From: Allacma fusca
Taxonomy: Eukaryota; Arthropoda; Collembola; Symphypleona; Sminthuridae
Direction of reading: 5' to 3'
Length of the DNA stretch: 64,000 nucleotides
NCBI GenBank assembly: GCA_947179485.1
Contig: OX359245.1
Coordinates: 44,069,067 to 44,133,066 of the forward strand
Below are positions 975 through 63,714 of this stretch, piece after piece (position 1 is the stretch's first letter; every line of letters begins with the position of its first letter). The position numbers and the translations under genes are program-made. The notes beneath the pieces are model-generated. The model did no database searches and was not told the DNA's origin. It saw only the letters and a program-made list of their open reading frames with translations.

Positions 975-1449
975 GTCTTGTGTACCATGCATAGTCTTAA
1001 GCAACGTGTAAATTTTAGAGGTTCGGGAATCCTAGATTCCATAGATTCGAATTCTCCCTTAAAGCGAAGGTTTACTACACTTTCTTATTACTTATTGTTA
1101 GTTTTACTATTTTAACCATTTCTTATTATTTAACTAATACTTTTTAGTTTACTTATTTCTTTTTTCGAATGTATAAAAACTGAACTAGATTCCTAATTAT
1201 TCCGCAATAATTTATCAACTACTGTGCTATTAATTCACCAAAACATCTCAATAAATCATTTTTCTTTAATAACTGTCATAGACATAAGGATCATGAGGAT
1301 TGTTTCTAAACAAATAGCTCACTTGCCACGGGACCCTTTGAATTAAAAAAAAAATTGAAAACATATTTTTCTCCAGCCCTACTCAATTGTGCAGAATTCC
1401 ACTGGATACTTGGACAGCATACGGCTAAACGGAGTGACAACTATCACGA
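975..1449. other. Unit 1 copy of the receptor-gene 3' flank
   Basis: This stretch is closely similar to 23571-24002 and 55107-55570, which directly follow the two receptor genes. It contains no open gene. It marks the left edge of the tandem unit and implies another receptor copy upstream of the window. Confidence 0.8.
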
Positions 1450-2300
1450 CAGTGCATCGCATGGGTACGGGTAGTACCTGAGTATTTGGGTACAGGTACA
1501 GGTCCAGGTCCGAAATGGGTACCCTGTTTAAGTACCGAAACTGAATGTGAACTTTATGGGTACTAGCTATATGTACCCAAATTTTGGGTACAAAGCCAGG
1601 TGTTGGGTACAGGTACAAACTTGGGATTTTCTGGGTTGTACCTGACAGGAACAGGTACAAGGTTCCAATACACCTGGACCTGACAAATTAATACCTGAAA
1701 ATGTGGGTCCTTTTACGAACAGAAATCCATCTTACGATGCATCTAGTGTAGAATGTGGCTCTCTGTCTCTCTCCGACGTACAGGTTTATTTTGATTGTAT
1801 TTTGTAGATTGATTTTGATATTCAGCGTGTTTTCAGAAGTGCATCGTAATTTTTGAAAAAGCATACGGTTATGCAATAGAGATGGTTGACCAACTTAGCA
1901 CAACGCGCCATAAATAATAAGTACGTGTAATTACAAATTCCAATTGTGATTCAGTAAAAATGACGTTAAATGATATTGTGGTTAGGGAGGATGACCTAGA
2001 AGTGGAGAATTTAATTGAAGATGCAATACCGCAGATGGTTAAAGAAAGTTAAAGTTCCATTAAGATGTCTAGTAATCCAAAAATTATGACGAGGCAGAAT
2101 TTTTTCCAGCTTGTGATGTAAATCATTGAATGACATCATGTTAAATCATCGTGTTGAATCGTTTACAGTAATTCTTTATAAATTACCTGATTGGGTACGT
2201 AGGAAAAAATTTCAGGTACAGGTCCATATATTGGGTATATTTTGGGTACGGGTAAAATTCAGGTACAGGTACGCACTACTTGCAAAATAAGCAGGTCCAG

Positions 2301-3374
2301 GGGCCTATTTCACCAAGCGCTCTTCACTCCTCAATTTTCACTTTTCATTTGGTTTTGAAAAGTTTTTGTTCCACCATTGCACTTTGCATTTGTAAATTGC
2401 AAAATGCAAAGTAGTAACTTTTCACACCCGATTTTGCAATTTACGTTTCACAATACGCGCCGGGAAAATGCAAAAGTGCAGAGTTTTGCAAATTTCCATG
2501 AAATGAATGCAAAGGGTCTCCACCTTTTGCACTTGGTACATGTAGTATTAAATATATGTAGTTTCTCCACTTACCCGTTTAAAAATTGGTTTACTTATTT
2601 AAAATTCCAATCTAAACTCCAACTAAGTTGATTTTGTGCCCTGAAATTGCGTCATAACAATAAGGTACGTATCATATTACCATTTGTTATTATTGTCTAT
2701 AAGTGTAAATTTATTAAGACAAAATACGCATTTCCATAATTTTTTAAATGTTTTAGAAGAATCAAAATGAATCTGCTGTTTGATAGCAGTGACGAAGTAG
2801 ATGATGACACTGCGTATACCCTCAGAGTTTACCGAACCCAAATTAACTTTACCATCGAAAAGTTCCGAATGAGATCCTCCGAAATAGAACATATCCTAGA
2901 AAGAGTAGGGACCGTTTTAAGCCCAAAATAAATATGAATAATGCAATGTCGCCGGAGGAGCAGTTACTAATAGCGTTCCACTGGCTGGGTAATGGCCGGG
3001 CGGGGACAGTATCATGGCGTTGCTGACATGCATGGTATCAGCAAATCAATTGTTTGTCGTGTTGTCAAAAAAAAACTACTAAACTACAATAGTTTAAACT
3101 ACTCACCAACCATGATCCAGGATAAAACGAATGGTGATAACGAGATCTTCTGGGACTTTGTGAGGCAATATGATATGAACTTAAATATTCCATTGGGTGC
3201 TCATCATTGTATGTTTGCACTTGATGTTTACCGTTCGAAAATTTGCACTCCTCACTTTAAATGCAAAGTTGGTGAGTTTGCTTTGAGATTTGCTACGCAC
3301 TTTTCACTTTGCGTTTATCGCAAAGTGAAAAATGAAAATTGAAAAGTGAAGAGTTGAATTGGTGAAATAGGCCC
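2301..3374 (+). mobile_element. PIF/Harbinger element nested in the hAT element
   Basis: Terminal inverted repeats GGGCCTATTTCACCAA flank the insert, and the 3-bp duplication CAG lies at 2298-2300 and 3375-3377. The unit 2 copy of the hAT element lacks the insert and shows the empty site CCAGGTACC near 24886. Subterminal sequences are mirror-like repeats of the TTTTCACTTTTCATTT type. The interior holds a transposase remnant. The 3-bp duplication and the end sequence are typical of PIF/Harbinger. It arrived after the unit duplication because only unit 1 has it. Confidence 0.85.
2767..3120 (+). pseudogene. Harbinger transposase N-terminal fragment
   Basis: The reading contains F-R-M-R-S-S-E-I-E-H-I-L-E-R-V-G, then MSPEEQLLIAFHWLGNG, then Q-Y-H-G-V-A-D-M-H-G-I-S-K-S-I-V-C-R. 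This is the helix-turn-helix N-terminal region seen in Harbinger-type (HARBI1-like) transposases. Two stop codons (TAA near 2929-2931, and another a few bases later) break the frame before MSPEE, and the reading is lost after about 3110. The catalytic DDE part is missing. It is a remnant that identifies the surrounding element and is not a working enzyme. Confidence 0.75.
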
Positions 3375-3992
3375 CAGGTACCAACATTTATTTAGTGGGT
3401 ACTTTTAATCAGATACGGGTTTGGGTACGATTTTCGCCGGTACCCTTTATTTGGGTCCAGGTCCAGGTACAGCATTTTTGTAGCCATGCAATGCACTGTA
3501 TCACATATCGGATTGATGTTGTAAAGGTATATGTGCAGAAATTGGTAAATTAGTTGTTACAAGTTTTACAATTGAATCGGTTGGGTTCATAACAAATATT
3601 TTTTCATCGATCATAATTACTGTTGTAATAGTTAACTTCCAAGTTGCCATTACTTGCAATTACTTATACTGGAGCGACATTATTACCATTTGTCTGCAAT
3701 TGTATTACTAAATGCAAAGAGCACATAAGGGATATGCCAAAATTGACGTCATGCAGTTACTCAGTGATTCATTATGACCATGAGTGCTTTAACTTGTTGT
3801 AATCACTCAGTCCCGTCTTCATATCATGACGCTATCTTCCTCGCTTGCATAACATTACTCCTCAAAGCATCCCAGATATAAATTGTAATTACAATTTTAA
3901 TTCAGGAATCATCATTAAACGGTACAAGGAGTTCAGCATTGAATATCATTGTGACGAGCGAAATCGAAGTCACAAGGACGCGAAGTGATATA

Positions 3993-4694
3993 CACTCAAA
4001 CCTCTTTATAGTCACTACCGATATAAAAAACTAGTGGTCGGACCAATTCAATTCAGAATTGGAAATTTTCGATTCGATTCAGCAGTATTTCGATTCGATT
4101 TGCAATAAAGCCAAATCGAATGATTCGATTTGGGGTGTGAACTGAATTGAATCATATCATGTGAATTGCAATTCAAACAATTCATCAAAACCGCTTCGGC
4201 TGCGCACGGGGACCTTTTTTTTGCATATTTCGAAGTCCAAATACTACGTATACCACAACGTTTGTTATTTTAACGTAGCTTTTACTATGCCCTTTATAAA
4301 ATGCATAGTAATACATATGGCACTCCTGTGACATTAGGAAAATTTTGTATTTTCCCACTTGAATCGTTTGATTTATGATTCAATTCGATTCACTGAGTGA
4401 ATTGAATCAAATTGAATTGCTTTGGGGCAAATTGATTCGAAAATCGGTTTTTCGATTCAATTCAAACTTCAAATTGAATCAAATTGAAAAATCTGAATCA
4501 AATTGAATCGATCCGTTCACTACAAGAACTTCTCTCTAGTGACATTAAAATAATTTGACCCCAGCGATTCTCCCGCATACTGTAATGTTAACTAGTTGAC
4601 TACTCAGTAGTCAGTTCTACTCAGTACTCAACGTTCTCTATTGTTAACTTTTATATACGGTCCCCTACGATGTGACTATAAAGAGGTTTGACTG
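3993..4694. mobile_element. pogo/Tigger-like MITE (unit 1)
   Basis: The ends are CACTCAAACCTCTTTATAG and, inverted, CAGTCAAACCTCTTTATAG, flanked by TA on both sides (3991-3992 and 4695-4696). This end sequence and TA duplication are like those of pogo/Tigger elements of the Tc1/mariner group. There is no coding capacity. A hAT element is nested at 4032-4522. The same composite exists in unit 2 at 25791-26507. Confidence 0.75.
4032..4522. mobile_element. hAT-type MITE rich in AATTGAATC, nested in the pogo MITE
   Basis: The left end TAGTGGTCGGACC and the right end GGATCGATTCAATT-type sequence closing in CACTA form an imperfect inverted repeat. The interior is a run of AATTGAATC and GATTCAATT motifs. 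Flanks in unit 2 are TAAGAAAC and TAAGGAAC, an 8-bp target duplication with one mismatch; in unit 1 these are slightly decayed. A relative with better ends lies at 31622-32476. Confidence 0.7.
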
Positions 4695-5926
4695 TATCAA
4701 AAAGCACCATGATGGACTGAGTGGCTAATATGTCAAATGTAAGCAGATAATTGTGTCACATTTTCAGTAATGATATATTAAAACTGTTATACAGATAATA
4801 ATTTTTATCAAATTAAGAGTATATTAATGAACTAATATGGGATACTAAAGTACTTCACGGCATCTAACGATCGGTATTGTAACAATATTCATACAGTCAT
4901 ATATAGTGCAGTACGTATACTAATTGCGCAACTTTTCGGTGTCGTTATGTATTTGTGTTTATGTGACCTGTTGTTTTTCCTTCGGGTCATATGAATGACC
5001 CGATAATAATCTCTAAAATCAGTCGGTCCAATGTTCCACAGTAATATGTTTGGAATGTGTGGTGATATTTATGACGGTCATCGTAAGAAAGGGCAAACAT
5101 ATAATCATACGTCACATAGTAAAATTATGGAACATGCTTTTTGCTGATCAGTTATCAGGATAGCGGCCAAACCAATGTCACTATAGACAGCTAATAACGA
5201 CACATATGTGACCTTTTCACTGAGAAACATATTGTTTTGACAGAAGATAGGGTCATCCGTTTGACCTCAAACCAAATAAAAAGAGATATTATATAAAAAG
5301 ATACTAGCACAAAAGGCTCCGACAGGTGGCGCAGTCACCTGGAACTGCCCCTCACAACGCTGTAAAGGTTATTGTTACAATATCTAGAGTTGCTGTGCAA
5401 ACCCTTGATATTCAATATGAGCCTATTAATCCGAGGCTAATTTCAATTAAGTATGCCCGAGTAGAATTTAGTTGGTCAGTATACGTCAGTTAGTGGTTAT
5501 CAACGTCAGATTACGTTATTGTGACCACCTTCATATTATATAGTAATATTAGGACAGTACATACAACGTTCACAAGACCATCATTGCTGACACGTATTCT
5601 GGCAACGTTGAATGAACGTTGTAATGAACGGATGTTGATAACGTACCAATATGGTCAATAATCAACGTTAATTGGACGGTTTATGTCAACTCTTCTACAA
5701 TGTCCTCTCGGGTCTGGTAAATACAACGTAAATGAAACGAAATCAATGTTTCCCCAGGCATGCGCATTTTGAAACAGCCTCGAGGGAATTGGAAATCATG
5801 CTCCCATCCATTTTGAAATCTCCACTGCACTTACACCGGACTAAGCTCACTCGGAGTGTCTCCAGTTTTGTTTTACAAAGGTAAGAATTTATTCATACAA
5901 TTATCAATTTGTAAATTAATATAATC

Positions 5927-7963
5927 ATGACTGACCGAACTGTTTCTGCACGTCAATTCAGACGAATTGTCAAAAGATCTGTAGATCATCAAATTGTTAA
6001 TATTATTGAAAAACGGGAAAAGAAAAATAGTACCCAGAATAATTTCGCTTCTTGCAACACGAAAGAGCTTGAATTGAAAAGTAATGAATTCGACTGTTAT
6101 CCCGGGGACTTCCCCGATTGTGAGTCGGATGATGAAAGTACATTAATTAGTGATAGTGATGAAGAAACAGATTCTCAAGAATGTGTTAGTGAAACAATAG
6201 AAGAAGAACTTTTTAATTCTAGTGATCTGAAGACGTCCTTGAAACAATGGGCAGTAAGCGAAAATATTACTCATAAGGCATTAGATGGAATTTTAAAAAT
6301 CTTGCGTAATCTTCATCCAGATCTACCAAAATGTTCGAAGACGTTGCTATCTACACCAACTGAAAAAGTGGCTTACTCATGTGACAATGGTGAATTACTG
6401 TACATAGGTATTAAAGATGGACTTACAAGAAAAGTTAAAAGTGGTATGAATAAAGAAACCAATGTACTGACTCTCAAGTTTAATATTGACGGTGTGCCAA
6501 TTTACAACAGTTCAAATCAATGCATGTGGCCAATTTTGTGTATTTTAAACGAATCTGTTGATGACAAACCCTTCGTTATACAAGTTTTTCTTGGAAATTC
6601 AAAACCGAAATACATTAGTGCCTATTTTGAAAATTTTTGCCATGATGTAAAAATAATTCTCTCTGAAGGTATCCTCGTTGATGAAAGACCTTACACAGTT
6701 GATTTAAACAAATGTTTATTTATATGCGACGCCCCTGCCAGATCATTTGTCAAGTCTGTTAAGGGACACACCGGATATTTCTCGTGCGAAAAATGCACTG
6801 TTGAGGGAGAATGGAACAATAAAATTGTGTTTCCCGAATTAAATGCTCCGCTTCGCACAGATTTGGATTTTAAATTACGGCGAAATGAAGATCACCATAT
6901 ACGTCCATTCCAAGACTCTCCTTCTCCCCTAGAAACTCTGGAAATTGGAATGGTTTCACAATTTCCTCTCGATTATATGCATCTAGTTTGTCTTGGTATC
7001 ACCCGAAAATTAATTTCTCTCTGGACAAGCAAAGGTCCTCTCAGAACCAGATTGTCATCCCCAGAAATTTCTCAAATTAACGTATTCCTTGGTGCAATAA
7101 AACCCTTCATTCCTTCGGAGTTTCAACGGAAGCCTCGCGATATTAATATTTTCGAAAGATGGAAAGCCACTGAATGCCGACTTTTCTTAATCTATACTGG
7201 CCCAATCGTTCTAAAGGAAGTTCTGCAAGAGGAACCATACAAAAATTTTCTGCTATTAAGTGTTGCAATTAGAATTCTGCTGACGGCTGAATTTCAGAAA
7301 TATACTGGCGCTAAAAAACTGCTCAGCCATTTTGTGAATCATTTTAAAACTCTTTATGGTCAGGACCACGTTGTTTACAATGTTCACAACCTCGTTCATT
7401 TAGCCGACGATGCCCTAAGGCTTGGAAGTTTGGACAACTTTAGCGCATTTCCATTTGAGTCATATTTGGGAAATTTGAAGAAAAAAATTCGATGTGGTAA
7501 TAAGCCATTGCAACAGTTACAAAGAAGATTGGCAGAAGAAAATTCAACAGTTCCCGTTCAAATTCGAAAATCCAATACCTGGTCGCTTTCTCGACCTTTT
7601 GTGGAAACAATAAATTTTGAAGGAGCGAATAACATAACAACGTTTAAAAAGTGCTCTTGTTTGGATTATGTTCTAAGTGAAAATGGAAAGGATTCGTACT
7701 TTCAGACAAAGAATGGAAAACTGTTTAAAGTTGTTAAATTTTTTGAAATCAGTCACTCAAACAAAATTATATGTAAACCCCTACTTTATATAAGTGAATA
7801 TTTTAGTTACCCTGTAAATTCAGCTCAACTCGGTATAATTAAAGCTCGTGTCAGTCATGATTGTGAGGTTGTAGTGGACATAATTGACTTTGAAAAAAAA
7901 CTCTTTTGTTATCCACAATCCGATGAATATTTAATTATATTTCCCTTGTGTCATAAATTGTGA
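5927..7963 (+). CDS. TNP2-like transposase, intact 678 aa
   Basis: The product should cut and rejoin element ends in the nucleus. The N-terminus is basic (S-A-R-Q-F-R-R-I-V-K-R, possible DNA contact), followed by an acidic stretch at about residues 55-95. A helical part (K-Q-W-A-V-S-E-N-I-T-H) precedes the catalytic-like core. Candidate acidic residues are D188 in NIDGVP, D268 in CDAPAR, D349 in PLDYMHLVCLG, and the glutamate in FPFES. A zinc-binding-like H-T-G-Y-F-S-C-E-K-C follows D268. The same landmarks recur in the two broken copies of the window. The start is the first ATG, 45 codons ahead of the acidic region, and the frame is unbroken. The partner gene begins 44 bp after the stop. Assignment to TNP2/CMC is from recalled motifs, and exact catalytic residues are inference. 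Confidence 0.82.
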   Translation: MTDRTVSARQFRRIVKRSVDHQIVNIIEKREKKNSTQNNFASCNTKELELKSNEFDCYPGDFPDCESDDESTLISDSDEETDSQECVSETIEEELFNSSDLKTSLKQWAVSENITHKALDGILKILRNLHPDLPKCSKTLLSTPTEKVAYSCDNGELLYIGIKDGLTRKVKSGMNKETNVLTLKFNIDGVPIYNSSNQCMWPILCILNESVDDKPFVIQVFLGNSKPKYISAYFENFCHDVKIILSEGILVDERPYTVDLNKCLFICDAPARSFVKSVKGHTGYFSCEKCTVEGEWNNKIVFPELNAPLRTDLDFKLRRNEDHHIRPFQDSPSPLETLEIGMVSQFPLDYMHLVCLGITRKLISLWTSKGPLRTRLSSPEISQINVFLGAIKPFIPSEFQRKPRDINIFERWKATECRLFLIYTGPIVLKEVLQEEPYKNFLLLSVAIRILLTAEFQKYTGAKKLLSHFVNHFKTLYGQDHVVYNVHNLVHLADDALRLGSLDNFSAFPFESYLGNLKKKIRCGNKPLQQLQRRLAEENSTVPVQIRKSNTWSLSRPFVETINFEGANNITTFKKCSCLDYVLSENGKDSYFQTKNGKLFKVVKFFEISHSNKIICKPLLYISEYFSYPVNSAQLGIIKARVSHDCEVVVDIIDFEKKLFCYPQSDEYLIIFPLCHKL

Positions 7964-8007
7964 AGCCAGTTTCGTAAAATTCTTTATCGTGCGATTGTTC
8001 ATTCCAG

Positions 8008-9818
8008 ATGTTTGCGTTAGTAGACTTTCCCGAAGAGAAAGGAAAAGATGGATCCATTCCGTGCGAGATTGTACATTTTTCTTGGTTGAGTTCGGATTTG
8101 AAATATTGCTGGTGGCCTGGGAATCGTAGCTACGTAAGTGAATTTAAACTCGGGACCAAACCTAAAAAAGATAAGTGGAAGAAGTGTATTGTGAAGACAA
8201 AATGTGTTTCGGGTAAGATACGATTTTCAAAGAAACAAATCAGTTGTGTAATGAATTAGATTCCTTAATTTCAAACAATTTATTGTAGTACAGGATGCGT
8301 TTAAATCTGTAATCGCTATGATATGGGCATTAAACTGTTAGCTAATAATGTAAATTAATTCGAAGTTGATTTAGATGAGATACGCGAAGCCAGGGAAGAG
8401 CATTTGCAAACTGCAGCAACTGATTCGGAAGTTGAGAGGGTAACAACTGTACAAGAACATAGTGGAATTGTTCTAGATATAGTTCAACCGATTCATGCTA
8501 GAACTAAAGGAAAGTTAACGGGAAAGCAAGCTGTAAAACTTCCTCCAGCTCCAGTAATTCAAAATGTTTTTGACTTAGAACCTGAATCCGAAGAGGACTT
8601 GAATCAGAGCGATGTAGTCTTCCAAATATCAAATGAATTCGAAATTCCAACGGCGTCAACCTCAAGAGTTGTTTTGTCAAATGTAACAGAGCCTATGCTC
8701 ACAGCAGCTGACCTTTCAGGTAGTTGACATTTTATGTAGTACATACACACAGGGATCCATAATTTGCAATGTCTAATCCCGTATATTGCTACTTTTGGAT
8801 AAAATATATCTGCAAACGTTTCTGGGCCATCCCTGATTTTGTTAGCAAAAAATAGTTTTTAATCCCAGTTATACCAATTTCCCAGAATGTTCTCCAACCT
8901 GCTCCGTTAAAAATTATCTAATACCCGCTGTTTCTGTAAAACAGTTGTTTTCCTGAGCAGATTACTGAAAATTTGCAGGGGAACCTAATCTGTGAGAACT
9001 GATTCTGTAAACTTTGAAAATTCCCCTGTATTTATTCATGACATCATACCCTATGATGTTGTAATTAATACAACTTTAATCCAACCCATCCTCTTATTTC
9101 AGTCAGCCTGAAATCCATCCTGACTCGCTTAACCAGCATTGAATTGAAAGTTGACAATCTGTTGAAGGATGTCAAATCCATCAGGAAACTTCCAAGTCAA
9201 CCGTTCGAAAAACCTGAGGGGTCACCGGCTTTACCCCTGCAGGAGTTGGATGAATTGTCTGTATTTGACGAATATTTGGAAGATGATAAACAATTCATTT
9301 ACTTTGTAATTTCATAACTCACTCCCATTTCTATTGCTGTGTATAAGTACGTTTCCTAGTACTAAATAACAACGGCGAAAAATTCATATTTTGCATCATT
9401 ATTACAGCAAAGGGTTCTGGCGCTAACTGGAGCAAATGGGGAGAAGGAGGCAACAGATCGGGTACTCGCCCAAATTATTTCGAATACACTTGCTGTGCAG
9501 CTCAACTGGAAAGGAATGGTCAAGCAAACCTGTCCCACCAAGGTTGGTTTGAGTAAATACGGAAGAATTGTGAAACTCGTTAACCGTAAGGAATTTATAT
9601 TTACGTTACCGTTTCATTTTAATTCAAACATAGCAAGTAGTTATACTAATTTACATGAATACGGAACTAATTTTACAATTTATGTAGAGACGGTCCGAGT
9701 TCTAGCTAGTGGGGCTACCGACAAGGTCATTCAAGATCGGATTCAGTACTGGCTGAAACACGCTAAAAATCGTATCCGGCCATTCCAGGTGGAATTAGTT
9801 GATTCGCAGGCCACCTGA
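8008..9818 (+). CDS. Transposon partner protein with DUF4806-like domain, 5 exons
   Basis: A consistent model is exons 8008-8212, 8375-8719, 9103-9305, 9408-9585 and 9688-9818, all with GT-AG borders and matching phases, giving about 353 residues. Exon 1 has the conserved start F-A-L-V-D-F with W-W-P and a K-W-x-K-C region, shared with partners in the other two elements. Exon 2 is low-complexity. Exon 3 has a short coiled stretch (L-T-S-I-E-L-K-V-D-N-L-L) and L-P-L-Q-E-L-D-E-L. Exons 4-5 have RVLALTG, L-N-W-K-G and the closing D-R-I-Q-Y-W-L-K-H-A. This order is that of DUF4806 proteins, whose function is unknown. Its constant pairing with the transposase suggests a helper or DNA-binding role, which is inference. 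No stop or frameshift was found. Confidence 0.75.
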
Positions 9819-10207
9819 ATTTATACATTTTATTATTTCTACGTCTACTATGCTACCATTTGCTTGATTCTTGTTTGTTTGAAATAATTTCCGTTTTAAC
9901 CAATAAATGCACTCATATGGGAGTCGAATAAGTGACAATTTGTTTCTTTTAGTGCCGTTTCAACATGCTAATAATTATAAATTCAAAATAATAGTTCAAT
10001 TCGTACGTCAAATTTACAGTCTCATATGACGTCTCGGTGACGAAACATTTGTAGTTCAATTAGCGACAAAACTCAACGTCCGATAGACCGACATTACCGC
10101 GGACATTTTTTACTCAGAATAGCGTCGAAGTTCAACGTTCAAATGACCACTTCACGTTAAATTATTACCTTTATTTAACGTTGGGTTGACCTAATTTTCT
10201 ACTCGGG

Positions 10208-11679
10208 TGATTTCATCAATACTCGCTTGCTAACAAGGCGCTCTGCCTGTTACTGTTTTATGTATTGCACTTCAATAATGTATGTATATTATATTTCTTA
10301 TAATATATTTCTTATTTATATTATATTTCTTCATTTTCTTTAGTAAGCAGTCAGTCATCTTTGTGTATGAACGATGAATGGCATTGCAGTCAGTCAGTCG
10401 TAATTTGCATCAATTTTGGATGACGCCATTGATGGTACATTCATAATAAAATTGTTATGCTCATAGTTGCATAACTATTCGGGGGCATATATCAGGATAT
10501 ATACTAATAAAAGCGCATCAAAACGATTACTGTTTTTAGAAAAGCATATGCCAAAAACCGATACTTCAAAAATATTTTATCCCCCTCCCCCAATTTGTAG
10601 GAGATTTAGTCCGGTGTATTTAAAAAGCTTCCTCACTCAACTATACATTATTATTTGGGGAACACGAGTTATGAACATAAGCAAAGTTGGATTATCCATG
10701 GATCGAGATATCGATATAAATTATTATCTTTTCATTTAAACTGGTTAGGTTGGTTCTAAAGAAAAGTATTAAGTCACTAATTGAAATGTAAGCTAGAAGT
10801 CGCAAGCAATTTGCGATAATGTAATTCAGAAAGAAACGTTTAAATTATTTTCCTGTGGGACTATCTGATACTGACGTACACAGTGGTTAAAACAATTCTT
10901 AACCTTAAAACACTTCTCGTGGAAAATCATACAATAATTACTCCCATGAACCGTGTGTAATTTCTCCGAATAACAAATTTCATTACTGTATAGTTTCATT
11001 ATCCTACATTCCTGCACTGTATAAGCAGTACAGTATGTATATAACAAATTTATAGTGCAGTACAATAAGTACATCTTAGCTTTAATTCATTTCCGGCTGC
11101 AACAATACGCAGTTTGTAGGAATTACAGTACTAACTACTTTTATATTTTTTATCACAGCATCAATTGTACATGGTGACCAATGTGCCATGATTTATTTCC
11201 TCCCCCAATAGCCCATATGGACAACTGATTCATAAAATATTTGAATTTTTCGGTTTATAGCAAATTTATTTTCACTTCATTGGCCTGGTTTAGCTTTTGA
11301 TGCCACAATGTTAAAAAGCGGGAAGCAAACTGCAGGATTATTTTAGAATACCTGGAATACAAACTTTTGCTACAAAAAGCAGGAAATAGAAGGTTTGAAT
11401 CAATGCCGTAATTATATATGTATGTATGTGACCTGAGCGATATGAATAATAATGTTCACTCTGTAAAAATGTGTAAAATTATAAAAGCCAATAGTTTCAT
11501 ATAAGTTTACGGAAATGCTAGTTGATACGTCGAGAGTACCTAAAAAGTCAACAACTATTGCAGAATAAAAATCACTAGCGTTGAATCTAGCTTAAGCTCA
11601 TGTACCCTGTATAGTTCCGTTCATTCGGCTGGAGAAAAAGTTACAATCAAGTTCTTGGTGTTAATTGTACGGTGGAAAA
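10208..11679. other. Region upstream of TIGAR-like gene A
   Basis: It aligns with 27161-28814 (unit 2) and 57591-59311 (unit 3), so it is part of the tandem unit and should include the TIGAR promoter. A small AT-rich duplication of the TATATTATATTTCTT type lies at 10280-10340. An open stretch at 10467-10739 is partly shared with unit 2, but the frame is not kept in unit 3, so it is not called a gene. No promoter element could be fixed. Confidence 0.6.
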
Positions 11680-12947
11680 ATGAGTCTTATTTACTTCGTT
11701 AGGCAGTACGGTTTTATTCTTTTTTTAAATGTAAATTACTAAAAATAATTTTTATTCTAATGCTAATGAAGTCCCTTGTTTTTATTTCAGTGGAGAAAGT
11801 ATTGGAAATACCCAGCTTAAGAATCTCACACCGGACGAGAACGTGCTATCTGAAACAGGTGTTGTCCAGGTATTTAATAAAACTAAAGTCAAATATCCAA
11901 CGAAAAATTATCATTCCCCAAACTATATTATTATGAGTTGTAGGATTTAGAAATGCCCCGACATCCAGTGTTTATGAATTAATTCCACTAAAGAATGCAC
12001 ATCAATATTAGCATCAGTTTTGTAACTCCGTTTGTTTTCACAGGCAAAAAAATTGGGAGCCCATTTGGAAAATGTAGTATTTACGCATGTTTTTTCAAGT
12101 CCTTATATAAGGGCTATTTCCACAACCCAGCATATTCTCTCGGAATCAAAAACTTTGTACAGCGATGATGTCATAGTTGTGGATTCTGACATTCGTGAGC
12201 GAGTAAGTCAAACCTGGGGTAAAACAATACTGACATAACTGAAGTAATTAAAAAATTCAGCATGATCAATATATCGGATTTTTTTGCTCCCCTAGCAAGT
12301 CGTTATTTATTCCTCAAAAATTTAACCCATTTATATCATAAATCTAATAATTAAAGTATATCCCACAGTTGTACATTCAAACTGTGCCTATTTCTAGTAT
12401 TTGGGCATATACGAGCAAAAATGCACCAAAGAGTTGGCCCATGCCTTCAAATCGACGGGTGTTGACTTTGACTGGACTCCAGAAGGAGGGGAAACAAAAC
12501 AAGAGGTTGAATTAAGGCTCGAATCGTTTTTACAAGTAAGGTATCCCACGTTAAATTAAAATTTGTTTTTGATGACAATTATTAAAGTTTAAGTAATTAT
12601 CTTACGTATCCCAGAAAGTTGGTAATATTGTGGATACCGGCTCTGAAAGGAACACAATTCTTGTTGTGACTCATGCCGCTCTAATGATACATCTATGGTG
12701 CTATTTGCTGGAAAGAAACGAGAAATATAGATTAAAAAATTGGAAATCGGATTTCCTGAAAGTATCGAAAAATGCAAATTATTTCCTGCTTGCCGTGGAG
12801 AAGTTGGAAGGGGCTGCCCAACCCCGTGAGTTCGAGGTTAAAGTGGCTCATGACAGCGAGCATTTGGTATCGCAAAAGGATGCCTTTAGTGGTTTGGCAA
12901 AGGATAGTAAATCCCTGGATTCAATGAAGAATTGCATGCAGCAATGA
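11680..12947 (+). CDS. TIGAR-like fructose-2,6-bisphosphatase / histidine phosphatase, copy A
   Basis: Exons 11680-11705, 11791-11869, 12044-12202, 12398-12535 and 12615-12947 join in phase to a 244-residue protein. The intron after base 26 splits the catalytic histidine codon: CA plus T gives R-H-G-E-S at residues 8-12. Further family marks are L-S-E-T-G-V-V-Q-A, F-S-S-P-Y-I-R-A, the acid in D-I-R-E-R (E87), T-P-E-G-G-E-T at about 115-121, and the second histidine in V-V-T-H-A-A (H154). This is the order in TIGAR, which removes phosphate from fructose-2,6-bisphosphate and so lowers glycolysis in the cytosol. At 244 residues it is a little shorter than vertebrate TIGAR (about 270). All splice sites are GT-AG and the frame is clean. 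Other histidine phosphatases remain possible. Copies B and C are in units 2 and 3. Confidence 0.82.
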
Positions 12948-39356: not shown

Positions 39357-39364
39357 GTTGGCAC

Positions 39365-41900: not shown

Positions 41901-42009
41901 ATTAAACATGCGCGTTGGGAAAAACTTTGTAGTAAATTGCGGAAATCCACCGATTGTTAGCAAAAGATACTGCCACGCTCCTGGCAACGCAAAGTTTCTG
42001 ATATCTAGT

Positions 42010-43582: not shown

Positions 43583-43889
43583 GTAAATACGTCTGCTATA
43601 TGTTAATATTAGTAACTAATACTTGTCCATGGAATTGAAGTTTCAACAAATTTGTGTCACCACATTGCATATTTTCAAATGATACACAAATCCATTCTAG
43701 AATAACTTTTGTAGCTCATTGCTTCCAGAATTTCAACTGCGTTCACAGTTTATTAATAAAAACGAATACGCACTCAGTGGCAGTGTTGGCTCCTCAAACG
43801 AAGCAGAGCCCTGTTTCTGTTGACAAAATTATTTCTAGCAAGAAAATTTACATAAGCCAGGCCTTACTGGTTCTGAATGGGTTTCAGTA

Positions 43890-52927: not shown

Positions 52928-55090
52928 ATGTCAAAAATTTGTGCTTTACAATTTTTAGTTATCCCACTCATAATTTTTACAGATCACGTAATTTGTAACC
53001 CGTACGTGATCCCCATCAATTCCAGGACCAGTGACTTGCAAGGTTTACTACAATCTTTATCAAACTGCTTCGTTCGAATCTTCGCCCTTCAAACCGCCTT
53101 TGACTTTTCCACATCGAGCGTTCCATTTGTTTTGACAGATGTTAATAATTACGATCTCTGTCTAAAAAATTCCGAGGGTTATTAGAAAATACACTTGTAT
53201 GATCAAAATTTAGAAAACATTGCAGTGTTAAAGCTATCATCAATAAAATGCTTCGCTGGTGTAATTTTGCAAGAAAATGATTACGCAGATGAAAAGATTT
53301 CTACTTCTACTACTCCCGACGATATTAGCTGTTTGACAATAATTTTATCCACGGAATACTCTCTGAGATATTTCAAGATAGTCAATTACGAAGCAGTACA
53401 TGAGAAGAAACTTCGAATTTATCCACGAACGTATTTCGTCTTTACAAATGCAATCAAAGAAAAAACGTTTCCAAAATCCCATGCAGACTACATAATATCT
53501 CTTCTCAGGCACGACGACACGTTTTCATATTTCATAATCAAGTACAGCTCGTCAGCCTTACAGGACACAAAGGAGTTATACTATATTCACCACAATTGTT
53601 TCCGGGGTTCCGAACTTCGATTAAAATGCCCTGATTTGCAAGGTTCTTCAATTTACCAGTCTCTAAGCACTTGCTACAAAACGTTGACCGGGAATGGCAG
53701 ACATTATTATGCTTGGGCTGCTTATGAGATTGGAAATTTGGATTTTGGGTTGGAATTATGCCAAAACAGTGTGATGGAGAAAAATTATTCACCATTTTCT
53801 ATGAGAGCGCTAGGAGTTTTCCTTAGGGATGACTTTAACGGTACTTTGAAGGGAAAAATGTGCCCACAACAAACGATGCTAATTGAATGTGACCCGACAT
53901 ATCACTACGAATTCGTTCGGACTAGTGACATTTCAGACGGATTTCAGTTCTACATGGTTGGCTACAATGACTTTATTTTCTTTACCACTGACGGGGTTTA
54001 CGAGGTCAAAAATGCCTTCCATGACTATTTGGCACCATTCGATCCTAACGTCCGATTTACACTCGCGACTGCTTTCATTACGGTTGCTCTCATACTGACC
54101 GGCATTACATTACAGCATGGAATTGTCTCCGGGGTATTGATTCAAATTCTATTTCAACTTTTCAGCATTATGATTGAACAAGGAACAAAACTGTCAGTTT
54201 CTAAATCAGTAAAGTCAGTTTTGACAACATCCAGGAAGATTGTGCTCATTTCCTTTATTCCAGCTGCAATGGTTTTATCAATTTATTACAAAAGTTTCCT
54301 CAAATCCGACTTCACCATACCAACACCCTACAAAACTGAATGGGGCACACTGAAACAGCTGGTTGACGCAGGATTTGAAATATTGGTTCCCATGGATAAT
54401 TGCCGATTACGAAGTCTTGACGGGATAATATTAGTAGCATTTTGTAAACCTGATCAATCAGATAATATTATGGCATCTCTCATGTGCCAACAACTTATAA
54501 AATATCAAACATACATTGCTTATACTCAAGCTGTGTCTCGTTACGATTCGGAAGTGGAGAAAGTTGGAATTGAGCACGTTCCGGAACATTTCTCGACGGT
54601 TTATGCTCTTGCAAATCAATCCACATACTTTTGCATGCAATTTTTCCAGGAATTCTTGCTATTACGTTTGAACAAACCCAAGACTGCTTTAGTAGTTTTC
54701 AGGAGACATTTTAACTATTTTTGGAGATTGTTTCAAGAGGGACAAGGAAATGGGAAAAAGATTGCTCATAATTTGGATAGTAGAGACAGTTTGCTGAACA
54801 CACCGAGGGGATATTACATTGCGAGTACTGGTGACGACAGCTACAATTGGGTACACAAAAGAATGAACGTTCTCTTAAGCTCAGGTATTTACTGGTTTTG
54901 GGAAACGACGGAGAAAATGGATGATGATGATGTGAAACCTACTACAAGTCCAGTGAAGGCATTAACAATCCCAGACTTTGAGCTAGCTTTAACTGGATGG
55001 ATGCGTTTGTTGATTGTTTGCACAGTTGTGCTTGCACTGGAATTAATGTTAGCTTGTAGGACTTATTACAAGAGGGAAATATTTAAGTAG
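52928..55090 (+). pseudogene. Ionotropic-receptor-like gene copy 2 with one in-frame stop
   Basis: The frame is the same from the ATG M-S-K-I-C-A-L-Q-F-L to the final R-R/K-R-E-I-F-K, except for TAG at 53183-53185 after S-E-G-Y. The readings before and after are in phase, so only one codon interrupts a 720-residue protein. Near the stop the sequence differs from copy 1 more than elsewhere (E-G-F-H-Y-M-Y in copy 1). The membrane and pore region is almost identical to copy 1, while the extracellular part is more divergent (for example a 6-residue deletion before S-A-L-Q-D-T-K-E-L). It may be a recent pseudogene, or a receptor read through its stop as reported for some insect chemoreceptors. Confidence 0.8.
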
Positions 55091-55570
55091 CACCATCCTA
55101 TCACAGGTCTTGTGTACCATGCATATAGCCTTAAGCAACGTGTAAATTTTAGAGATTCGGGAATCCTATAGATTCCATAGATTCGGAATCATCTTAAAGC
55201 GAAGGTGTACTACTTTCTTATTACTTATTGTTAGTTTTACTATTTTGACCACTTTTTATTATTTAACTAATACTTTTTAGTTTACTTATTTATTTTTTCG
55301 AATGTCTAAAAACTGAACTAGATTCCTAATTATTTCGCAATAATTTAGCAACTACTGTGCTATTAATTCACCAAAACATCTCAATAAATCATTTTTCTTT
55401 AATAGCTGTCATAGACATAAGGATTGTTTCTGGACAAGTAACTCACTTACCACGGGACCCTTTGAATTAAAAAAAAATGAAAGCATATTTTTCTCCAGCT
55501 CTACTCAATTGTGCAGAATTTCACTGGATACTTGGACAGCATACGGCTAAACGGGGGACAACTATCACGA
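55091..55570. other. Receptor copy 2 3' flank
   Basis: It closely matches 23551-24002 and 975-1449, ending with TATCACGA, the target duplication of the hAT element that follows. No gene was recognised. Confidence 0.75.
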
Positions 55571-56859
55571 CAGCGCATCGCATGGGTACGGGTGTAGTAC
55601 CTGAGTATTTGGGTACATGTACAGGTCCAGGTCCGAAATGGGTACTCTGTTTAAGTACCCAAACTGAATGGGAACTTTATGGTTACTATCCAGAGATGCG
55701 CATCCACAGTTTCGTTACGTTACGTTACACTATTACGATAGGTTTTAAAATTGACGTTAATTTTCATTACATTACTAAATATCATATGAAAAATTCAGCG
55801 TTACCGTTCCGATGCTACAAGACAACGGTAATACTCCAGCGTTAATTTTCGTTACCATTAAAAAATATAAAATAGCCGTTACTTTCCGTTATCGTTACTA
55901 TTATTGTCCGCTCGTTATAAACTAAGAAACAACGTCAAACAACTAGTGTTGCCAGACGTACCTGGTATGCAGAAAATGTAGTGAAAAGGCAATTTACAGT
56001 TTCTGAGTAGTTCTTGATTCACCTGCAATGTGATCCGCATCCCGACTACCCGGTGTGGTAATCTCAAAATTTGTCCTTTTTTCAAATTCAATTTTCTCCT
56101 TTTAGTAGCAGCAGTATTCTCCATGGTTAGTTGTTATCTACTAAAAACTTCGTTAGAACCAAAACTTAATTCGTAAGCCTATCACACATCGCTTGTTTTT
56201 AGCAAAAGCGTGTGGATTGAGCAAAATAAAGGGTCAAAAACTTTTAAAACCTATTGAAACTTGCCATGTTTTCAATAACGTACATAATGATGCTCATGGA
56301 TCAGGGTGTCCACATCCAACTCAAGTTGGTAATATTTCCCCGTAAATTTCATATTTATTTGATAGGATTACGTTACGTTACAATATCGTTTTATGTTTAC
56401 ACACGCTGGAACGCTACAGTTATTCCGATATACGTTTAGCACAACCTAGTTCCGTTATCGTTACGTTATTGCCTGCTCCAGATATAGGCCGTTACGTTAA
56501 AAACGGCGTTATTCCGTTATTGTTGGGTAAAAGTAACGTAACGGGCGCATCTCTGGTACTATCTATATGTACCCAAATTTTGGACACAAAGCCAGGTGTT
56601 GGGTACAGGTACAAACTTGGGATTTTGTGGGTTGTACCTGACAGGAACAGGTACAAGCTTCCAATACACCTGGACCTGACAAATTAATACCTGAAAATGT
56701 GGGTACTTTTACGAACAGAATCCATCTTACGACACATCTAGTGCAGTATGTGGCTTTCTCTTGCTCTCCGACGTACAGGTTTATTTTGATTGTATTTTGT
56801 AGATTGATTTTGATATTCAGCGTGTTTTCAGAAGTGCATCGTAATTTTTGAAAAAGCAT
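55571..56859. mobile_element. hAT-type GTAC-rich element, unit 3 copy, right part deleted
   Basis: It starts CAGCGCATCGCATGGGTAC after TATCACGA. The right half is missing: sequence corresponding to 1870-4725 of unit 1 is deleted at 56859/56860. A different hAT element is nested at 55691-56555. Confidence 0.75.
55691..56555. mobile_element. hAT-type element with GTTACG repeats, nested
   Basis: The ends CAGAGATGCGC and, inverted, CAGAGATGCGC are flanked by TTACTATC-type 8-bp repeats (TTACTATC at 55683-55690, GTACTATC at 56556-56563). Units 1 and 2 keep the empty site. Subterminal regions carry CGTTACGTTACG and TTACCGTT motifs. No transposase was recognised. Confidence 0.85.
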
Positions 56860-59311
56860 AATATGTCAAATGAAAGCAGATAATTGTGTCACATTTTCAG
56901 TAATGATATATTAAAACTGTTCTAATATTTTTTTGTTAAATTAAGAGTATATTAATGTACTCATATGGGATACTAAAGTACTTCACGGCATCTATCGATC
57001 GGTATTGTAACTAAATTCATGCAGTCATATATAGTACAGTACCTATATTATTTGCGCAACTTTTCGGTGTCGTGAAGTAATTATTTGTGTTTATGTGACC
57101 TGTTTTTTTTCCTTCGGGTCATATGAATGGCCCGATACTCTCTAAAATCAATCGGTTCAATGTTCCACAGTAATATGTTTGGAATGTGTGGTGATATTTA
57201 TGACGGTCATCGTAAGAAAGGACAAACATATAATCATACGTCACATAGTCAAATTAGGGAACATGCTTTTTGCTGATCCGTTATCATGATAGCGGCCAAA
57301 CCAATGTCACTAGACAGCTAATAACGACACATATGTGACCTTTTCACTGAGAAGCATATTATTTTGAGAGAAGATGGGGTCATCCGTTTGACCTCAAAAC
57401 AAATAAAAAGAGATCTTATATAAAAAGATGCTAGCACAAAATGCTCGAAAAGGTGGCGCAGTCCGCAGTCACCTGGAACGGCACCTCTCAACACTGTAAA
57501 GGTTATTGTTACAATATCTAGAGATGCTGTGCAAACCCTTGATATTCAATATGAGCCTATTAATCCGAGGCTAATTTTAATTAAGTATGATTTCATCAAT
57601 ACTCGCTTGCTAACAAGGCGCTCTGCCAGCAGTTACTGTTTTATGTATCCATTGAACTTCAATAATGTGTATCTATGTATAACATTTCTTCCTTTTCTGA
57701 AGTAAGCAGACAGTTATCTTTGTGTATGAACGATGAATGGCATTGCAGTCAGTCAGTCATAATTTGCATCAATTTTGGATGACGCCATTTATGGCACATT
57801 CATAATAAAATTGTTATGCTCATAGCTGCATAACTATTCGGGGGAATATGTAATTATATCGAGATTAAGTACAAATAAGTCCAACAAAACGATTACTGTT
57901 TTTAGAAAAGCATATGCCAAAAACCGATACTTCAAAAAAAATTATCCCCCCTCCCCCAATTTGCAGGAAATTTTGTCCGGTGTATTTAAAAACTTCCTCA
58001 CTGAACTATACAATATTATTTGGGGAACACGAGTTATGAACATGAGCAAAGTTGGATTATCTATGGATATAGATATCGAAACAAATTATTATCTGTTCAT
58101 TTAAACTGGTTAGGGTAGTTCTAAAGAAAAGCATTAAGCCACTAAATGAAATGTAAGGTAGTAGTTGCAAGGAATTTGCGATAATGTAATTCAGAAAGGA
58201 ACAATTAAATTATTTTCCTGTGGGACTATCCGATAATGACGTACATTGTGGTTAAAGCAATTCTCAACCTTAGAACACTTCTCGTGGAAAATCATACAAT
58301 AATTTTATTACTCTGTAATGTAGAGATCCCATGAACCATGTGTAATTTCTGTGAATAACAAATTTCATTACTGTATAGTTTCATTATCCTACATTCGTGT
58401 ACTCTATAAGCAGCATGTATATAACAAAGTTTATAGTGCAGTACAATAAGTACATCTTAGCTTCAATTCATTTCCGGCTGCCACAATACGCAGTTTGTAG
58501 GAATTACTGACTATTTTTATATTTTTTTATCACCGCATCAAGTGTACATGGTGACCAATGTGACCATGATTTATTTCCTCCCCCAATAGCCCATATGGAC
58601 AACTGATTCATAAAATATTTGAATTTATCGGTTTATACAAATTTATTAAATTTCACTTCAATAATTTTAAGGGTTAATTTTTGAGGAAACAATATTAAAA
58701 AGCATGCAGAAAAACAGGATTCTTTTGGAAGGACAATTTATTTATTTTTAAAATTCTTACACAACATTTTCAAAACTATTTTCCACTCGTTTGTCGGAAA
58801 CATGGGCTTTTTGGGTAATTTGAATTGTCCCTACGTTTTAACACCTTTAAAAGCATTTCCTTGTCAATCATTTTGTGAGAATAAAAACAATTATGAATTT
58901 GATAATGATGAAGTTCGAATTCGTTTTAAGGTTTTAAGGCGACTCCACACTTACTGTTTGGTTAATAAAGAAAATTTTAGAATACCTGGAATACAAACTT
59001 GCTACAAAAGACAATAAGTTTGAATCAATGCCGTAATTATATATGTATGTATATATATGACCTGAGCGGCGAATCATAACGTTCGTCCTTATAAATTTGA
59101 AAAAAAATATAATAGCCAATAGTTTCATATAAGTTTACGGAAATGCTAGTTGATACGTCGAAAGTATGTACCTAAAAAGTGAACAACTATTGCAGAATAA
59201 AAATCACTACCGTTGAATCTAGCTTAAGCTCATGTACCTTGTGGAGTTCCGTTCATTCAGCTGGAGAAAAGATTGCATTTAAGTTCTTGGTCTCATACGT
59301 ATGGTGGAAAA
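56860..59311. other. Unit 3 spacer and TIGAR copy C upstream region
   Basis: It aligns with 4726-5455 joined directly to 10210-11679 of unit 1, giving the empty site of transposon 1 at about 57589. Positions 58650-58985 differ from both other units; an open stretch at 58802-59017 there has no recognised domain. No gene was recognised. Confidence 0.65.
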
Positions 59312-60825
59312 ATGAGCCTTATTTACTTCGTTAGGCAGTATGGTCTTATTCTTTTTTTAAATATAAATTATTAAAAAGGTTTTTTATTCTAATGCCGTAA
59401 CTTTTTTGATTTCAGTGGAGAAAGTATTGGAAATACCCAGCTTAAGAATCTCACACCGGACGAGAACGTGCTATCTGAAACAGGTGTTCTCCAGGTATTT
59501 AATAAAACTAACGTCAAATACCCAACGGAAAATAAGCATTCTCCAAATTATAGGATTATGAGTTTTAGGATTTAGAAATGGCCCTACACAAGTTTTTCCA
59601 CGTTGATCCTTTTCTTACAATTTAATTTTCCAAATATTCAAGTAAATAGATGAGTTAAATATTATGTACCTTTTTCCAGCACGAAGCTGGCTTTTATCCA
59701 TAAAGCTGGTTCTAGTAACATTTCCTGTAGTTTTACATTAGCATCCTTTTGATATACTGTCAAGTCATACTTGTTAACTACAACCCTGCGTTTCGGCCCC
59801 TACAGTAGAGCAAGTCTTAGGGAAATTTTCAGTAATCTAATTGTTAATAAATTTTCCAAAATACATACATCCATTGTTTATGGATTAATTTCACTAAAGA
59901 GTGCACATCAATATTACCATCAGTTTTGTAACTCTGTTTGTTTTCACAGGCAAAACAATTGGGAGCCCATTTGAAAAATGTAGTGTTTACGCATGTTTTT
60001 TCAAGTCCTTATATTAGGGCTATTTCCACAGCCCAACATATTCTCTCGGAATCAAAAACTTTGTACAGGGATGACGTCATAGTAGGGGATTCTGACATTC
60101 GTGAGCGAGTAAGTCAAACCTGGGGTAAAACAATACTGACGTAAATGGAGTATCCAAAAAAGGCGGCATGATTAATATGTCGGATTTTTTGCTCCCCTTG
60201 CAAAGTCATTATTTATTCCTCAAAAATTAAACCCATTTATATCAAAAATCTAATATTTAAGTATCCAACAGGTGTACATTCAAAATGTGCCTATTTCTAG
60301 TATCTGGGCATATACGAGCAAAAAAGCACCAAAGAGTTGGCCCATGCCTTTAAATCGACGGGTGTTGACTTTGACTGGACCCCAGAAGGAGGTGAAACAA
60401 GACATGAGGTTGAATTAAGGATCGAATCGTTTTTACAAGTAAGGTAACCCAATTCACAATAAAATTCGTTTTTGATGACAATTATTAAATTGTAAGCATC
60501 TTACATATCCCAGAGAGTTGGGAATATTGTGGATACTGGATCTGAAAGGAAAACTATTCTTGTGGTGACTCATGCCGCTCTAATGATACATCTATGGTGC
60601 TATTTGCTGGAAAGAAAGGAGAAATACAAATTAACAAATTGGAAATCGGATTTCCTGAAAGTATCCAAAAATACAAATTATTTCCTGCTTGCCGTGGAGA
60701 AGTTGGAAGGGACTGCCCAACCCCGTAAGTTAGAGGTTAAGTGGCACATGGCAGTGAGCATTTGCTTTCGCAAAAGGATGCCTTCAGTGGTTTGGCAAAG
60801 GATAGTAAATCCCTGGATTCAATGA
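59312..60825 (+). CDS. TIGAR-like fructose-2,6-bisphosphatase, copy C, altered C-terminus
   Basis: Exons 59312-59337, 59416-59494, 59950-60108, 60301-60438 and 60514-60825 join in phase to about 237 residues. R-H-G-E-S, F-S-S-P-Y-I-R-A, D-I-R-E-R, T-P-E-G-G-E-T and V-V-T-H-A-A are all kept, so the catalytic set is complete and all donor and acceptor sites are GT-AG. One base is missing after L-E-V-K near 60742, which changes the last 28 or so residues and ends the frame at TAG 60825, 20 bp before the position of the original stop. The tail lies outside the known catalytic motifs, so function may survive. Intron 3 is longer than in copies A and B because of extra sequence at about 59582-59865. 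Confidence 0.72.
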
Positions 60826-61689
60826 AGAATTGCATGCAGCAATGACAAATGCTACATTTTAATAATTGTAATTTTGAATGATGTTGAATATAATAATTTT
60901 TGGGGTCCTAATTAAATGTACATATGTATGTGTACACGTTCTTACCTTACATTGTTAATAGTTTAATCAAACTCATATTACGAATTTTGTCGTCATGAAC
61001 AGTAATCACTTGGAACTTTTAGATGGTAACTTGTTTCCAGTGTTGATATGGTTTTTAAATGTAGTTGGTGCATGCAGATTAATACAGTGGCCTTTCTATA
61101 TAGTGGTTAGATGTTACATTTCCCTTGGAAACGATTATATAGTGTGTAATGTGTATTGTGTATATGTACTGTACTGATAGTATGTAATAATTACTTAAAC
61201 TTAGGAATCCGACGCTTAATATTGTTGTTTAAATTTTGCTTAGGATTACACTTACATTATTTATAGTAGTAAGATATAGTGGCATCACCATATATTGGCA
61301 GGTATTTTCCATCCCTCGGGAATCACTACGTAGGAAATTCACTACACTTTCCTTGAATTAGGCGGCCAAGACGTTTCCCTTCCAAATGTTATTCACAAAA
61401 AAAATAAGCGAGAAAACATTTTCCTGCAAATGACCCTGAGGAAACCGTCCACACTAAAATGTATACTGAGATTTTATATATAGATGCCTGAAAATATTTT
61501 AAAATTGGTTTTGCAAGAATGAAATTGAAAATAATTTCTTAGTGTGCTATTTTAAAACATTTTGTGATTAGGTTTTTCGAAACGTGGTGTTTTGTGCCAT
61601 GCACGGTTTTTATAAGTATTCCTAGATCCCGCTAATAATACCACATTTTTTACAGTATGGTGTGACATTTTAAGTACGGTAAGTAAGAC
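60826..61689. other. TIGAR copy C 3' flank
   Basis: It aligns with 12930-13620 of unit 1 up to about 61560, after which homology stops. No gene was recognised. Confidence 0.65.
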
Positions 61690-62340
61690 CTGGCCTCAAG
61701 TTCAGTTCAACTAATGATTCGCACTTGAACTTGACCATGAACTTGAACATGAGCATGAATTTCAAGTTATAGTAATTATTTTATGTATACTTATAAATAG
61801 AAAGGCTCGAAAATTACCTGAGATTTTATTTTGATTAATTCTTTACAATTAAATATCAAAATTTAGAATAAGTTTTATGCTGTACTTTTTTTGTAGAACC
61901 ACAAAATGTTTGTGAACCTTCGACAATTGTTTCTGCCTTCTTAATAGGGTTTGACTTCCAAGATCAACATTTTTGCACTGTTGAGATTCTTCGAATGTGC
62001 GCCTTAAACTAAATTAAATAAAGACATCGGGAAAGATTTTGCTTCTAATAATTGAGCACGGAGCACGTTGTGGGATGAAAATCCCGAATTAACAGTTTCG
62101 AAATTTCAAGCAAATACGTTAAGATTTAAATTAGCGGTTTAAAAATGTAGTAAGGACGTCTGCATTTTGACTACTATCTATAACGTAGTATAAATAAGAA
62201 TAGGAACTTGACACTTTATTATTATTATCTATTTTCTGATCGAGCCCTTGGCTCTTAGTTATTTTCGTCACATTTATTACATCGCTTATACAATTAAATC
62301 ATATGCTGTCCGACCGAACTAAATTAAATTAAACTCAAGT
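61690..62340. repeat. Region bounded by AACTTGAAC-type repeats
   Basis: CAAGTTCA and GAACTTGAAC motifs cluster at 61698-61760, and ACTCAAGTTCG lies near 62333. This resembles the hAT-type subterminal repeats, but no convincing terminal repeat or target duplication was found. Confidence 0.35.
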
Positions 62341-63289
62341 TCGTGTGATTGATCAGTATTTTTGAACACTAAATGCATTCTGCCAGCTTCCTTTTAAACC
62401 CCATCACAGTCTCGTTCGTGATACAAATCACGGGTTGTGAATAATCATTTATTTCCGTGTCAATCGAAATACGCCCATTAATTAATCAAATGAGAAATAA
62501 CGCTTACAATTAGCTTTTCCATTTTTTAGGCAAGAAGCGAAGCTTAATTAATTATATGCAGGCTGGGCTGCTAAATAACCTTTGCGCCTCTAGGTTCTTC
62601 AAGATTAAACCAAGCAACACAGCTTCTTGTAAAGAATTTCATTTTGGATGAAAAAACGCATTATTCAAAGCGATCAGTCAACAATTACGAACGTTACGAC
62701 CATGAAGCAAACAAAACTTCATCAATGACAAAAAATTAAATAACACGAAGCGATACACCAAGTGATAATAAACTTTTGCCAAGACACTGGTGAATTTCAG
62801 AAGCTCGTGTGGTTATATCCACGAGGATTGTACGAATTTTAAATCGAATGATAAATTCACAAATTACATTTTAGTAAATTGGCATTCGCAATGCCCTGTT
62901 TGATCGTGCTTCTACTAAGTTTGCTCAATGTGATCAATTCATCTAGAGTAATCATTCTTTTGGCCTCAAACAAAATACCAGCCCAAAAAAGCATTTAGTT
63001 TTTAACCAAAAGCAAACATACATATATTGGGTCTAACCGGAAGAGGTTCCAATCAGAAGAAATTATTTATGAACGGTATAAAGTAACACAACTAAACTCA
63101 TGTCGCACAGTTTGAACGTGGGAAAAATAAAACGTAGTTAATGCTAACGTGTATATGATGATGTTACTATATTAATAGCGTAATTAACAACTAAGTAATT
63201 TTGCCAAGGGGCACCAAATATTCTTGAATTTTAAAATTAATGTTATTCACGCTTGTGTTGTAACAAGCCATTCCTATAAATCACAAACC
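62341..63289. other. Intergenic region
   Basis: No gene, paired ends or repeat was recognised here. Confidence 0.4.
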
Positions 63290-63714
63290 TGAATTTCAAA
63301 TTAAACAGATAAATAAGCAAAATTCCCAAAATATTGGAAAAATGATAATTATTTCTACATTCTGTTGTAGCCCAAATGCACAGACACGACGAACTTTTAT
63401 AGCTTTATTCATTTTTGGAAACGTTTTGCTAGTCGGATGTGCACCCTGAAAGAAGTAGCTTGTCCCATTATCATGAATGTCTAAATTATTGTTATGGGTA
63501 GAGGTACAACTCAACGCGAATCTGAACAACAAGGTACCCCTTGTAACCACCGGAGGTTTAGCAAATGCTTCCCATCAATTGTGGTACTTGCATTGGTTTG
63601 TTTTGTGACCCCCGTTTTATGAATAATTATAGGTAGACAATACTCAGTCCCGGAGGTTAAAACGTGGTTGCTGCCATCCAGTAAATGGAAGTTTATAGTT
63701 TTCAAAATGAACAT
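63290..63714. repeat. Segment shared with 40680-40990
   Basis: It matches unit 2 with one insertion of about 110 bp at 63450-63545. Its presence downstream of TIGAR C indicates that the array continues past the window. Positions 63715-64000 show nothing recognised. Confidence 0.7.

Follow-up and report, generated by a model that had tools for sequence, protein, structure and literature searches.

The genome of the globular springtail Allacma fusca contains, in and just beyond the 64,000-nucleotide stretch analyzed here (C1:44069067-44133066, contig OX359245.1; in the following the window), three colinear units that lie head to tail in the same orientation. The arrangement is visible in a self-BLAST of the window (repeats from 200 bases upward, E ≤ 1e-20) and in a wider comparison of the window together with 100 kb on each side (264 kb). 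The repeated block is ~30 kb long, with the gene order desaturase, ionotropic-receptor-like gene and TIGAR-like gene. This is segmental duplication of the ordinary kind rather than amplification of a dedicated cassette, and the copies are decaying gene by gene. All coordinates are window positions, and negative numbers lie to the left of the window.

The self-comparison of the window yielded 27 repeated pairs, of which one is a local tandem repeat, and three parallel series (975-15126, 23569-40231 and 55107-61558). Unit 1 begins ~15 kb left of the window; its part within the window, from the receptor 3' flank to the TIGAR 3' flank, spans 975-15126 and chains to 23569-40231. Unit 2 (16275-43849) chains to both other units, as does unit 3, which runs from 50016 to 64000, ends just beyond the right edge at ~65414 and lacks the desaturase interval. 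The best colinear chains comprise 14,152 aligned bases at 89.8% identity for units 1 and 2, 9,733 at 87.8% for units 2 and 3, and 9,849 at 87.9% for units 1 and 3. Within the window, the two receptor regions are 31.6 kb apart (19919-24115 and 51496-55690, 89.9% identity), and a third one lies just left of it (-2825 to -225; 92.1% identity to unit 2, 91.0% to unit 3). These results bear out the sequence-only reading, which had described a three-fold tandem block, two receptors at this spacing and a GTAC-rich element common to the units. Its gene identities (receptor, TIGAR-like, desaturase) also hold in the profile, Pfam and PDB matches given below. The composition it proposed for the unit stands as far as the repetition of the block is concerned, whereas the gene order had to be corrected to the one given above, and a desaturase is not part of every unit.

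The receptor frame is open in two of the three units. In unit 1 it occupies -2427 to -253, and in unit 2 it is a single open frame of 729 amino acids (21361-23550, plus strand), with ionotropic glutamate receptor (iGluR) matches for the family profile and the structure model. The receptor of unit 3 (52928-55090, plus strand) keeps one frame throughout, except for an in-frame TAG at codon 86 (53183-53185); after this codon it carries indels of its own of 18 and 9 bases, both in frame. The three array receptors are at least 84% alike, while the next relative reaches 45% among the matches listed (best 59 of 584 candidates); the nearest outside relatives in that list are found at C1 45.46-45.58 Mb, with about 43-45%. 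Three other near full-length relatives (C1:43948685, C1:45490631 and C8:71072884) show 1-3 in-frame stops, each within one long match.

Pfam gave no match for the array receptor alone. A profile built from 20 members of the family in this genome and compared with the PDB matched 32 sequences at E ≤ 1, all of them glutamate receptors (best 0.0016), over the first to the third membrane segment; an earlier profile of eight members had produced a single iGluR match at E 0.59. Lig_chan (Pfam) was matched by four of the 20 members (best 5.3e-4), and 12 other families match one member each. A first structure model from eight sequences was poor (predicted local distance difference test, pLDDT, 39.7) and was dropped for the fold search. 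With a moderate model (pLDDT 59), iGluRs occupied ranks 1 to 22 in Foldseek, with just one match at E ≤ 0.001 and low template modelling (TM) scores, and in the VIA-align rows of the receptor comparison unrelated proteins stand just below the iGluRs. The array receptor thus appears to be a divergent, apparently intronless (single-exon) ionotropic receptor of the iGluR superfamily and, judging by this family, the retained copies are likely to work as divergent ligand-gated channels with a sensory role.

The TIGAR-like gene is fully intact in one of the three units. In unit 1 the complete model (11680-12947, plus strand) predicts 244 amino acids from five exons (11680-11705, 11791-11869, 12044-12202, 12398-12535 and 12615-12947), with GT/AG at all four introns. 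The protein matches His_Phos_1 (PF00300, 5.7e-26) and has the RHG motif of histidine phosphatase branch 1. Its top PDB match, the best of 18 PDB sequences, is 3dcy (2.4e-16), and this strong match stops at residue 134; 3dcy and 3e9c are human and zebrafish TIGAR. The domain and the best PDB match are the basis on which the predicted protein is called TIGAR-like. In NCBIfam, a bacterial and archaeal library, it met 22 families, all under the cut-offs, and the matches of the TIGAR-like and desaturase proteins in this library were all far under them. The second histidine motif reads THAA in all three array copies in contrast to SHGA in 3dcy; in the nearest outside relative (C1 46.14 Mb, 78-79%) it reads THGA. 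Outside the array, 15 loci carry relatives of the last exon (12615-12947); 12 of these loci, among them C1:46138787, are on C1.

In unit 2 the TIGAR-like gene is a pseudogene (28815-32571, plus strand): the donor of exon 1 reads AT instead of GT, exon 3 contains an in-frame TGA, and two inserts interrupt the gene, one of 1.6 kb and hAT-like in exon 3 and a second of 0.86 kb in exon 5. The copy of unit 3 (59312-60845, plus strand) has lost one base in exon 5, which alters its C-terminal tail.

The desaturase, too, is intact in unit 1 only, where it forms one open frame of 355 codons (-13806 to -12742). Based on PF00487 (5e-16) and PDB 4ymk (Acyl-CoA desaturase 1, 5.5e-89), the predicted protein is acyl-CoA desaturase-like. 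Unit 2 retains a remnant (16702-17776, plus strand) that is split over two frames and, compared with unit 1, is shortened by a deletion of 24 bases; its second piece still matches PF00487 (3.7e-12). Unit 3 is without the gene: between 50210 and 50456 it lacks the counterpart of the unit 1 interval -14723 to -11224, and two short matches (40 and 53 bases) to sequence that immediately follows the desaturase lie out of order at 44524 and 49372. The nearest outside relative among the matches listed is at C1 42.79 Mb (80%).

An 8-base target duplication together with inverted ends is the hallmark of hAT transposons. Private insertions with target duplications are present in every unit and are younger than the duplications. 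Unit 1 carries a hAT-like insertion at -226 to 974 (target duplication GTCTTGTG). In unit 2, a GTAC-rich hAT-like insertion at 29328-30943 has perfect inverted ends of 19 bases and the 8-base target duplication ATTCTGAC, and a further hAT-like insertion at 38227-39356 has the 8-base target duplication GTTGGCAC; in unit 3 the target duplication of the hAT-like insertion at 55691-56555 agrees at 7 of 8 bases. Another GTAC-rich element, dispersed in the genome (1450-2301), occupies the same site in all three units, with only its left part remaining in unit 3. It is about 86-88% like its dispersed copies, which are 97.7-98.8% alike in the three pairs compared. Because of the shared site, and because its similarity to these copies is lower than theirs to each other, this element is older than the duplications. 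Pfam found no match for the 94-amino-acid frame at 831-1112, the one transposase search made for the hAT-like elements. Transposon-like stretches at 5456-10207, 33306-37729 and 45076-47038 have weak, sub-threshold matches to DUF4218; the first two show CCC..GGG inverted ends, and the first contains an open frame of 682 amino acids. Among ten further open reading frames compared with Pfam, one had a sub-threshold DUF4218 match.

Such a density of hAT-like elements and of elements with weak DUF4218 matches could suggest that a mobile element copied the block as its cargo. We regard this as very improbable and as the least likely of the explanations considered: each characterized insertion occurs in one unit only and breaks into the block, and the copies are adjacent, on one strand and found nowhere else among the candidates scored. 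When window positions 1000-2000 were searched against the genome (392,743,791 bases, 91 contigs), matches to the unit flank (query 1 to ~440) came from the three array places only (best 40 of 918 candidates), and the other 38 of the 41 matches listed, one of them in unit 3, comprise the GTAC-rich element alone, from query position 440 onward. Neither this flank search nor the receptor search (best 59 of 584) revealed further copies of the unit outside the array among the candidates scored.

The private insertions also bear on the question whether the copies are alleles that were set side by side by an assembly artefact or by joined haplotypes. Such errors did occur in this genome, since the assembly report lists 23 haplotypic duplications removed by curation (PMC10427803). 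However, there are three copies rather than two, and the same report gives 80-fold HiFi coverage and a quality value of 58.7 (PMC10427803). Over the 7,625 columns common to the three units, units 1 and 2 differ at 521 positions (6.8%), units 1 and 3 at 639 (8.4%) and units 2 and 3 at 663 (8.7%). In contrast, the heterozygous variants reported for two A. fusca individuals of another study, after filtering and anchoring, number 28,070 and 235,301 (PMC9630974); relative to 392.8 Mb this is about 0.06% at most, a low count owing to the filtering. The 264 kb contain no N, and together with the private insertions in units 1, 2 and 3 this makes alleles or misassembly unlikely; we give this explanation very little credence.

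A tandem segmental duplication, on the other hand, is supported by colinear, same-strand homology in genes as well as in non-coding flanks and by comparable synonymous divergence (dS) in the three genes, 0.07-0.15 in total range (receptor 0.092-0.128, TIGAR-like 0.070-0.150, desaturase 0.121 for the one existing pair). The fate of the genes after the duplication is different. We counted 42 indel events in 2,288 bases of the non-coding flanks, eight of them multiples of three. The receptor frame (about 2,190 bases) has four, each with a length divisible by three, where the flanks would predict ~40 (P about 4e-13). Lineage-specific changes, silent versus replacement, amount to 13/39 in receptor 1, 28/65 in receptor 2 and 25/63 in receptor 3, and receptor 3 therefore does not look like a long-dead gene. 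Replacement differences per 90-codon window, summed over the three pairs, are fewest in codons 631-720 (about 12) and 361-450 (about 14), the latter covering, in the receptor model, the first membrane helix and the pore region, and most frequent in codons 271-360 (about 82).

The closest pair of units shifts along the block: units 2 and 3 upstream of the receptor, units 1 and 3 in the receptor 3' flank and units 1 and 2 in the TIGAR exons. Furthermore, receptors 1 and 3 share an identical run of 340 bases near the 3' end, a length that was reached in none of 2000 permutations. Local conversion or exchange is probable for this 3' receptor tract and less firm elsewhere in the block.

The unit 3 receptor might be a functional pseudo-pseudogene: the TAG at codon 86 would be read through, conversion would match the C-terminal part to unit 1, and the ligand domain would diverge. 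We consider this doubtful, with perhaps an outside chance of being correct. The olfactory receptor pseudo-pseudogene Ir75a of D. sechellia is described as likewise an ionotropic receptor with a premature stop and an otherwise open frame; there, readthrough was reported (PMC5615767), whereas the unit 3 receptor is at most a candidate for it.

Units 1 and 2 hold all three genes together, and in unit 1 all of them are intact. This could indicate a functional cassette, in which receptor, TIGAR and desaturase were co-amplified through selection on linked dosage, and the sequence-only reading had described receptor and TIGAR as one amplified unit of unusual composition. To evaluate linkage outside the array, the receptor list was reduced from 79 to 55 rows by removing 3 rows of the array itself and 21 rows that were second pieces of genes already in it. 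For TIGAR-type loci, 15 of 21 rows for the last exon (leaving out 5 array rows and 1 second piece) and 9 of 26 further rows (leaving out the array row, pieces of listed genes and other histidine phosphatases) were used. None of the 24 outside TIGAR-type loci has a listed receptor within 50 kb, and two have one within 150 kb (nearest 113 kb). For the nine closest outside desaturase loci among the matches listed, the corresponding numbers are zero and one (nearest 77 kb). These lists are lower bounds; the receptor and desaturase searches scored only part of their candidates, so unlisted receptors could change both 0/24 and 0/9. According to these counts, the linkage seems to be particular to the array block. 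The nearest outside relatives of the genes sit apart, and desaturase and TIGAR-like genes are each damaged or missing in two of the three units: the desaturase is frame-broken in unit 2 and missing in unit 3, and the TIGAR-like gene is disrupted in unit 2 and, in unit 3, has a frameshift close to its end. In view of this independent damage and of no co-location elsewhere among the listed loci, we rejected the functional cassette, which is highly improbable, and the suggestion of a meaningful amplified unit is not supported. A receptor duplication that took passengers along is the best description of the unit.

Taken together, we are confident that the array arose by tandem segmental duplication of one block, whose receptors were kept, whose desaturase and TIGAR genes, its probable passengers, are being lost independently and in which local gene conversion probably took place. 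One desaturase/ionotropic receptor/TIGAR-like block was copied two times in tandem, with unequal exchange as the most likely mechanism. The receptor frames have few indels, none of them frame-breaking, which suggests that coding constraint acted on the receptor copies during most of their existence. The desaturase and TIGAR-like genes, whose damage is visible, would have come along as passengers and are being lost independently in a birth-and-death process. Parts of the block are probably homogenized by gene conversion or exchange that acts locally among the units, consistent with the shifting closest pair and the 340-base tract.

Several observations weigh against parts of this explanation. 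The whole-gene ratio of replacement to silent divergence (dN/dS) of the receptors is 0.67-0.75, and at such high values relaxed constraint is inseparable from diversification. The mosaic ancestry test (chi-square 65.3, 8 degrees of freedom, p 4e-11) pools blocks of different constraint and alone cannot separate conversion from unequal rates. Shorter identical runs, both in the conserved channel region, join receptors 2 and 3 (140 bases, 0 of 2000 permutations) and receptors 1 and 2 (108 bases, p 0.03). Since these runs pass or nearly pass the permutation test, constraint alone can yield long identical runs. In addition, a limited BLAST of the unit edges found no repeat bounding the units, and units 2 and 3 are colinear up to 43849 and 65414, whereas unit 1 has no match to this last part (40671-43849 and 63292-65414). 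For these two reasons the breakpoints are not clean; the deviating end of unit 1 reflects different breakpoints or a later deletion.

Some features of the surroundings may be added. A 152-base tandem repeat is present in about two copies at 42157-42488, and no part of the window matched Rfam at gathering scores. Left of the window, C1 is dense in minisatellite-like tandem repeats with many self-matches (about -94 to -28 kb), and on the right a 1.2-kb direct duplicate (126248-127464 and 132934-134148, 99.3% identity) is much younger than the array.

Among the papers listed, none was relevant to springtail tandem duplication and TIGAR. The closest parallel comes from the dipluran Campodea augens, for which an expansion of intronless ionotropic receptors to 2,424 such genes is described, with comparable segmental duplications, pseudogenes caused by single mutations and arrays that are often on both strands (PMC6938034). 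Unlike these, the springtail locus is one three-copy, one-strand array with two identified passenger genes. It offers a clean example of birth-and-death in an ionotropic receptor array of a globular springtail, in which the passenger genes help to separate what was selected (the receptor frames) from what was hitch-hiking (desaturase and TIGAR). At the same time, it is a warning that gene linkage inside segmental duplications should not be read as functional clustering.

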